Shown: in pieces, positions 34,840 through 37,262 of the stretch | Layout of the letters: every line of letters begins with the position of its first letter | Numbering within the stretch: the stretch's first letter is position 1 | Assembly: GCA_012960115.1 (NCBI GenBank) | Contig: DUBX01000044.1 | Coordinates: forward strand, 26,604-63,865 | Source of the DNA: Porticoccaceae bacterium | GTDB lineage: Bacteria; Pseudomonadota; Gammaproteobacteria; Pseudomonadales; Porticoccaceae | Direction: 5' to 3' | DNA: 37,262 nucleotides | The notes under the pieces: model-generated | The model's database searches: none | Told to the model about the DNA's origin: nothing | Seen by the model: the letters and a program-made list of their open reading frames with translations, nothing else | Position numbers and translations under genes: made by a program

Positions 34840-34865
34840 GGCGACCTTAGCTTGTTAGTTTTTTT
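34835..34865 (+). terminator. intrinsic terminator of maeB overlapping two stop codons
   Basis: The stem GCTAAGG/CCTTAGC (34835-34841 with 34845-34851) with a CGA loop is followed, after seven bases, by seven T (34859-34865). The left arm contains the maeB TAA, and the T run lies in the last codons of the convergent rsmI gene. On the opposite strand there is no T run after the stem. Confidence 0.8.
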
Positions 34866-35703
34866 GCAGGGATAGCGCCAACTGATAAAGCTGTTTCTTG
34901 TCGCCGCCAGTGATTTTGGCAGCGATGGATGCCGCTTTAGTCAATGGCAATTCTTTGATCAAAAGTCCTAATAACTTCTCTGAATCTGCAGGCATGGTCT
35001 CACCCATTTTCTCTTGACCAGCAACAACCAAAACAATCTCCCCTCGTTGCTGATTACTGTCCTCTGTCACCTGCTCTAATAGATCACTAAGATTACCATG
35101 CAAGTACGTTTCGAATTTTTTAGTAATTTCACGCGCTATAAAGGCTAAACGCTGAGGGCCAAAAATATCGCTAAAATCTGCGATAGTATTGGCTATACGA
35201 TGGGGCGCTTCGTAACAAACGATAGTGTCTGTCACTGCTTTTAATGCTTCAATAGCCGTCTTGCGCTGACTTGACTTTGAGGGTAAAAAACCAATAAATC
35301 GAAATTTATCCGTCGGTAGCCCCGATACGCTCAAAGCGGCTATGACCGCGCTAGCACCGGGAATGGGCACAACGGAGAACCCATTTAAACGTGCCTCATG
35401 CACTAATCTGTACCCCGGATCAGAGATCAACGGTGTACCCGCATCGGAAATTAGGGCAATATCGTCGCCAGCGCTAAGTCTTTTCAATATTTTATCGGTG
35501 CTGCGTTTATCACTATGATCATGGTAAGCAACACAGATCGTCGTGATCCTAAAATGATCGAGCAACCTTTTGCTGTGACGTGTATCTTCACAAGCAATTA
35601 GACTAACAGACTGGAGAGTGGTGACCGCGCGAGGTACCATATCCCCTAGATTGCCAATAGGCGTGGCAACAACATACAACGTACCGGATTGATTTGAATT
35701 CAT
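34855..35703 (-). CDS. rsmI: 16S rRNA 2'-O-ribose methyltransferase RsmI
   Basis: A 282-residue SAM-dependent enzyme of the tetrapyrrole-methylase fold that methylates the ribose of C1402 in 16S rRNA. ATPIGNLGD (13-21) and the SAM-site motif SDAGTPLISDPGY (86-98) are characteristic. The ATG at 35703 opens just before the conserved GTLYVVATPIGN; the frame stays open to 35823, but that extension lies inside lppC. The ATG shares two bases with the ATG of the divergent lppC. A TTG at 35709, with AGAAG upstream, is a possible alternative start. Confidence 0.95.
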   Translation of the reverse strand: MNSNQSGTLYVVATPIGNLGDMVPRAVTTLQSVSLIACEDTRHSKRLLDHFRITTICVAYHDHSDKRSTDKILKRLSAGDDIALISDAGTPLISDPGYRLVHEARLNGFSVVPIPGASAVIAALSVSGLPTDKFRFIGFLPSKSSQRKTAIEALKAVTDTIVCYEAPHRIANTIADFSDIFGPQRLAFIAREITKKFETYLHGNLSDLLEQVTEDSNQQRGEIVLVVAGQEKMGETMPADSEKLLGLLIKELPLTKAASIAAKITGGDKKQLYQLALSLQKN

Positions 35704-36481
35704 GGACAAAAAGTTTCTTCTGCAGATTGTTGGTTTAGGTTGTATCTTAGCCTTTATTAGCGGTTGTACGCCAACTACAACGACACAGAGTGGGAGTGTG
35801 CCCGTTGCTTTTATCGCTACCACCGAAGATGCTTCTCTTTATGAGCAAGCTGAAACCTTATTTGTCAGAGCTCAATCAGTCGAGGTGCCAAGCGAAATCT
35901 TGTTGCAAGCAGCAATTTTGTTCGCCAAAAGTGGCGACAAGAACAGGACTGTTGAATCGCTGGCGCTAATCGATCCAGATGAGCTGAAAAATGTCGACTT
36001 TATCAGCTACACCCTACTCGGCATCGAACTAAATTTGCAGTCCGCCTCTCCGGCTGAAGCACTGCTAAAGTTACAAGCTACACGTTTTATCGCACTGAAA
36101 TCATCATTTAAACGCCAAGATGTCCTGCACATACTAAGCCTTGAGTCAGATATTAGTGCCAAACTTGGCAACATAGAATCAAGCATTAACGCGTCTATAC
36201 AATTGGCTCAATTACTGAACAAAAAAAGTGACGTGCTCAATGTTCACAATAAGATTTGGCGACAGCTATCTGCACAGCCCTACAATGTTTTGCAACAATG
36301 TTTTAACGAAGCCGAACCTATTCTCGGACTGTGGTGCAACTTAGCAGCCGACATGCGGTTGTTTCAAAGTAACCACCCTGGCCAACTAACACAATTTAAT
36401 ACCTGGAAGACTGCCAATTTTTCTCATCCCGCGGCTCGAACACCACCATCAGGAAAAACCAGGCAATGGCGAACATGGTGA
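35702..36481 (+). CDS. lppC: LppC/LpoA-type penicillin-binding protein activator lipoprotein, 3'-truncated
   Basis: It begins with a lipoprotein signal peptide, lipobox FISGC with Cys22. About 220 residues of the helical N-terminal repeat domain of the LppC/LpoA family follow; this outer-membrane lipoprotein stimulates class A penicillin-binding proteins. The divergent position next to rsmI supports the identity. The family is usually around 600 residues or more, but here the native sequence ends near residue 244 (about 36,432-36,441). The last 15 or so residues to the TGA at 36,481 are read from antisense acr3 DNA. The periplasmic-binding-protein-like C-terminal domain is wholly missing. Confidence 0.8.
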   Translation: MDKKFLLQIVGLGCILAFISGCTPTTTTQSGSVPVAFIATTEDASLYEQAETLFVRAQSVEVPSEILLQAAILFAKSGDKNRTVESLALIDPDELKNVDFISYTLLGIELNLQSASPAEALLKLQATRFIALKSSFKRQDVLHILSLESDISAKLGNIESSINASIQLAQLLNKKSDVLNVHNKIWRQLSAQPYNVLQQCFNEAEPILGLWCNLAADMRLFQSNHPGQLTQFNTWKTANFSHPAARTPPSGKTRQWRTW

Positions 36482-36788
36482 AGGGCTTGATCAGCCAGTT
36501 CACAATGGTGGTGATGGCCAGGCCTTTTGGCTCCTTGCGCACGCCCACCACTGCGCTGAAATCGATCTGGGCCATCATCGGGAAGATCATGGCCCAGATC
36601 AGAATGGCAATAGGGATCGACACCTGAGCGTATTCGAAGCGAGCCAGAGTTTCCGGTACCGAGGGCGCCAGTTGGCCGAGGGCTATGCCAGCGATGATGG
36701 CCAAGGCGACCCAGATGGACAGGAATCTTCCGAACAAATCCATGCCACCGCTAGTGTCTTCGTTAGTAACTTCTGTATGGGCGCTCAT
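36396..36788 (-). CDS. acr3: ACR3-type arsenite efflux permease, 3'-truncated
   Basis: The first roughly 118 residues match the N-terminus of ACR3 arsenite permeases: MDLFGRFLSIWVALAIIAG as helix 1, IPIAILIWAMIFPMMAQIDF as helix 2, and the NWLIKPFTMFAIAWFFLMVV region as helix 3. After FEP the frame passes into lppC antisense sequence and stops at 36,396. Seven of the ten expected helices are lost, including helix 4 with the conserved cysteine, so this product cannot work as it stands. AGGGATAGG precedes the ATG. arsH lies ten bases upstream on the same strand. Composition is GC-richer than the rest of the window. Confidence 0.85.
   Translation of the reverse strand: MSAHTEVTNEDTSGGMDLFGRFLSIWVALAIIAGIALGQLAPSVPETLARFEYAQVSIPIAILIWAMIFPMMAQIDFSAVVGVRKEPKGLAITTIVNWLIKPFTMFAIAWFFLMVVFEPRDEKNWQSSRY
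36432..36441. other. sequence junction: lppC joined to GC-rich ars DNA
   Basis: Left of this point the plus strand reads LppC; right of it the minus strand reads Acr3. Both reading frames lose homology to their families here. By hand count, 36,181-36,240 has 22 G+C of 60 and 36,541-36,600 has 35 of 60. I see no insertion sequence, target duplication, att site or tRNA at the join. Confidence 0.75.
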
Positions 36789-36798
36789 TACCTATCCC

Positions 36799-37262
36799 TT
36801 ACATGGACCGTTGATTGACGCGTGTTGAGACTTCATCGGTGCTTTCCACCCGCTCGGAATAGCGGTCCGTCAGAAAGTCGCTGCGGTCCCGTATCAGCAG
36901 GGTGAATTTCACCAGCTCCTCCATGACATCCACGATGCGGTTGTAATAGGGCGAGGGCTTCATACGGTTATTGTCGTCAAATTCCATGAACGCCTTGGGT
37001 ACCGACGACTGGTTGGGAATTGTCACCATCCGCATCCAGCGCCCCAACACCCGCAACTGATTCACCGCATTGAACGACTGGGAACCACCACACACCTGCA
37101 TCACCGCCAGGGTCTTGCCCTGGGTAGGGCGTACGCCGCCGATGGATAGGGGAATCCAGTCGATCTGGGTTTTCATGATGCCAGTCATAGCGCCGTGGCG
37201 TTCCGGCGAGCACCACACCATGCCTTCCGACCACTGGGCCAGTTCCCGCAATTCCTGAACTT
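36799..37262 (-). CDS. arsH: ArsH-type NADPH-dependent FMN reductase (5' end off the window)
   Basis: The frame is open to the right edge, so the N-terminus is missing; about 153 codons are present. [20 protein letters not shown], the following [30 protein letters not shown] and [20 protein letters not shown] match the ArsH flavoprotein family, which oxidises trivalent organoarsenicals or reduces quinones and oxygen. It is coupled to acr3, ten bases downstream, as in many ars operons. The high GC content fits the acr3 segment and not the core genes to the left. Confidence 0.92.

Follow-up and report, generated by a model that had tools for sequence, protein, structure and literature searches.

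A divided lppC joined to a foreign acr3-arsH fragment at a contig end of a Porticoccaceae genome, almost certainly a chimera and not real DNA

Misassembly is known to yield chimeric contigs and is itself described as relatively rare when compared with mis-binning in the available part of one study (PMC8201837), and the available part of a second study counts such contigs by assembler, megahit having produced more of them than SPAdes in its test (PMC11261854). The locus described here comprises a join that is present in the sequence but almost certainly does not exist as real DNA, in a 2.43-Mb genome assembled into 54 contigs. The window, the whole stretch of DNA analysed (37,262 bases), corresponds to bases 26604-63865 of contig C44, and its last base (37262) is also the last base of this contig of 63,865 bases. 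The window thus ends where the contig ends, so that the arsenic-related piece beyond the join amounts to a tail of 831 bases only, and arsH is cut there too. The features at the join and next to it are as follows:

34855..35700, minus strand: rsmI, a host gene and the left synteny anchor (TIGR00096 / PF00590)
35702..36448, plus strand: 5' part of lppC, host sequence (PF04348), the remainder being at G000:C29:1-1031
36432..36448, no strand: 17-base word common to lppC and acr3, the joining site of the two sources, identical in the lppC of congener G003 and in the foreign acr3
36432..36788, minus strand: foreign acr3 (arsenite efflux transporter), N-terminal part, TIGR00832 positions 1-103 of 327
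36799..37260, minus strand: foreign arsH, C-terminal part, cut by the contig end, TIGR02690 positions 81-219 of 219

The longest frame of rsmI (34855-35823, minus strand) has a GTG start and extends over the beginning of lppC (35702). Since the family matches start no earlier than residue 43 of this frame, the ATG at 35703 is probably the true start.

Both genes at the join are broken, as an earlier note made from the letters of the window had described. The plus-strand frame 35702-36481 matches the LppC profile (PF04348) over positions 24-204 of 563 only, the match of the minus-strand frame 36396-36788 to ACR3 (TIGR00832) stops at position 103, and 36396-36481 is a tail-to-tail overlap of the two frames, in full agreement with that description. 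The same note had placed both truncations at one same base; the truncations stand, but the single base does not, since 36432-36448 belongs to both families. The GC content rises across the join, as had been noticed, from 0.459 before it to 0.564 after it. The reported absence of tRNA genes, inverted repeats and duplications was likewise borne out, as the window contains no tRNA gene and each repeat pair found is confined to one side of the join. More generally, no mobility gene, terminal repeats, target duplication or tRNA target indicative of a mobile-element or island insertion was found, and acr3 and arsH are the only genes recognised in the 831-base tail.

The rest of lppC is found in the same assembly, on contig C29 from base 1 onwards. 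The LppC profile, searched against the whole genome, has two matches, (i) C44:62494-63051 (profile positions 24-204) and (ii) C29:21-1007 (profile positions 233-563), the latter in an open frame at the very start of this 263,356-base contig, which supplies the second lppC fragment that the earlier note had proposed to look for. The two pieces together account for a full-length LppC profile with 28 positions missing between them. From the end of lppC, C29 continues into UPF0102/yraN, the gene named beforehand as the usual downstream neighbour of lppC, and then into a DiaA/GmhA-like gene; it begins directly inside lppC, with no ars sequence ahead of it. No contig of this assembly was found to join the two pieces through the approximately 75 bases between them, and from the arrangement in relatives we infer that C44 and C29 are adjacent in this genome.

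Relatives normally carry lppC at full length, in keeping with the earlier note. The LppC profile was searched against 34 congeners (G001-G034): 30 display a single full-length match (G007, one of them, has a second match below the cut-off), two display LppC in two pieces (G021 on one contig and G022 on two contigs), and two gave no match, those genomes being 80% and 71% complete. The lppC of G021 (L151, G021:C9 6420-8271, minus strand) comprises two overlapping frames of 273 and 451 aa, which suggests a frameshift between the N- and C-terminal parts, whether a sequencing error or real; in G022 the gene is spread over two contigs, cut by the end of one and the start of the other (L152, L153; G022:C85, G022:C56).

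The synteny comparison covered 33 stretches from 32 congeners. In 31 of the 32, rsmI and the genes of C29 are found on one contig and in the same orientation, the projected spans ranging from 2358 to 3249 bp with a median of 2990, of which the value of 2358 (L138) stands apart; the remaining congener is G022, with lppC itself divided between two contigs. A match to yraN was detected by DNA comparison in 15 of the 33 stretches. The nearest congener compared, G003 (L132), is 96.2% identical to the part of lppC on C44 and 96.5% identical to the part on C29, and has 75 bases between the two pieces, with the reading frame open throughout. The corresponding gap measures 75 (L133), 78 (L129) and 78 (L144) bases in further close congeners and, with only 75-78 bases to account for, an inserted segment is not needed.

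The alignment of the window to G003 follows lppC as far as 36448, and its alignment to a foreign acr3 (L155) follows acr3 from about 36432 (36431/36432), the 17 bases at 36432-36448 being identical in the lppC of G003 (L132:6570) and in this acr3 (L155:5724). The word held in common with L154, the closest DNA match of the tail, comprises 13 bases, not 17. In a chance test of 200,000 random registers between the G003 stretch and 2 kb of L155, in which runs through the sampled point were recorded, no run reached 17 and the longest was 11. A shared word of this kind is the expected trace of a false overlap in assembly; the word alone is not decisive, because microhomology-driven recombination in the cell would leave the same trace.

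The lineages of best hits, which the earlier note had advised comparing, differ between the two sides of the join, with the host side 96% identical to a congener and the tail 92% identical to a Marinobacter-like sequence of another family. The tail found no DNA match in any of the 49 other congeners searched (50 including the own genome), and matches in 211 of 390 genomes of the order, a sample that includes the own genome. The best foreign match, G384, belongs to another family and shows 92% identity over 829 of the 831 bases, with intact acr3 (355 aa) and arsH (238 aa) in the order observed in the tail; the intact 355-aa acr3 homologue is the one in L154. Within the same family, three genomes of another genus match the tail weakly, with E values from 6e-10 to 9e-8. 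In a scan of named genomes, the first five rows of the best 80 loci are all Marinobacter, with protein identities of 93-95%. A tree of 83 rows groups the tail with five named Marinobacter ArsH rows together with G384 and G367, the fork uniting the tail and Marinobacter having moderate support (86/75), and places four other Marinobacter rows (L047, L049, L050, L055) elsewhere. The exact donor was not found among these matches, the best of them reaching 92%. The search of the own genome returned one acr3 and one arsH match, both of which are the tail itself, and no others, and none of the four close congeners searched has an ACR3 profile match.

The last 0.8 kb of C44 is thus, with very little room for doubt, a chimeric tail, however formed: its true continuation is found elsewhere in the assembly, on C29, apart from about 75 bases, and the join carries a word shared by the two sources (17 bases with L155 and 13 with L154). 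The true chromosome would run through lppC into C29, with the end of lppC followed by yraN and the DiaA/GmhA-like gene. Near 36432-36448, one word of 17 bases or more is common to the host lppC and a Marinobacter-like acr3, and over it the assembler most likely stepped into the foreign operon, a chimera formed in the library being the less likely source; the path would then have continued through the foreign operon to the contig end within arsH. We infer that assembly is where this step took place. The chimera of two genomes, one of two readings offered by the earlier note, gains its backing from the C29 fragment, the lineages of the two sides and the lppC of the congeners.

In addition, C29 contains a second assembly join, at 1567-1687. 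A 17-base word occurs there twice, at 1567-1583 and 1671-1687 (L004), and the copies are separated by 77 bases that have no equivalent in either G003 or G024, and then by 10 Ns. This second join lies about 95 bases past yraN; if C44 and C29 adjoin each other as their counterparts do in G003, about 1.6 kb separates the two joins. A SIS-domain gene, intact in G003, is broken by the second join close to the start of the gene; its top NCBIfam matches are to DiaA and phosphoheptose isomerase and score under the cut-offs. The extra piece (C29:1567-1656) corresponds to 30 residues with a weak match to NAMPT_N, the NAMPT N-terminal domain (21.2 bits against a cut-off of 25); it found no match in NCBIfam that would reveal its source, none in the 397 other genomes of the phylum sample (398 including the own genome) and none in phage records at E 1. 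The occurrence of two such joins within so short a distance speaks for a fault in how this genome was assembled and not for biology.

The second join also bears on the manner in which the chimera arose. A physical origin before assembly, by PCR, ligation or whole-genome amplification, with the product then faithfully assembled, is unlikely: such chimeras too form at short shared words, but a tail that stops at the contig end, and a similar second join with 10 Ns in C29, both fit a graph or scaffolding error better.

A false step in assembly remains the preferred reading when set against a biological origin. The earlier note had also offered the illegitimate insertion of an arsenic-resistance segment, which is not supported, as all the checks run point to a chimera. 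According to this alternative, a real segment would have entered lppC by microhomology-mediated recombination and inactivated it, the right junction being located in the unassembled gap before C29; we regard it as very improbable. A single junction is seen in lppC, and a second would have just enough room in the approximately 75 bp left unassembled there. Plasmids often carry arsenic genes, the tail has matches in 2710 plasmid records, and the 17-base microhomology at the join would suit such an event. However, a coverage of 80% of the tail or more is reached by only three of the 2710 records, whose identity is 72.6-74.5%, so that a known plasmid source is not indicated. The same join that breaks lppC also breaks acr3, C29 starts directly in lppC without ars sequence, no more than 75 bp separate the two parts of lppC in G003, the segment is without DNA match in all 49 other congeners and no second piece of acr3 or arsH was found in the genome. 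Equally hard to credit is a minority strain in the sampled population in which an arsenic segment derived from Marinobacter has recombined with lppC at the 17-base microhomology. A genuine rearrangement, in which a translocation breakpoint parted the two halves of lppC, is the most far-fetched of all: the halves do lie on different contigs, but each stops at a contig end or close to it, the two stopping points are neighbours in relatives, the sequence of C44 beyond the break is foreign, and nothing precedes lppC on C29.

The broken lppC and acr3 are, most likely, not a biological event, and the significance of the locus is one of data quality only. The window is no basis for calling this genome lppC-deficient or arsenic-resistant. 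The contamination estimate of the genome is 0 and does not reveal the foreign tail of 831 bases; short foreign tails at contig ends can mimic horizontal transfer or gene loss.

The comparison with known systems comprises three cases. (i) The LppC (PF04348) genes of the same genus resemble the present one in the rsmI-lppC order and in the 96% DNA identity with G003, but here the gene is divided between two contig ends. (ii) The acr3-arsH pairs of Marinobacter share with the tail the gene order and the 92% identity over 829 of 831 bases observed for G384, whereas both genes are incomplete in the window. (iii) The chimeras of metagenome misassembly (PMC8201837, PMC11261854) offer no material difference in the available parts of those sources, the foreign piece here being small (831 bases), and the likeness resides in two sources brought together in one contig, with lineages that differ by side.
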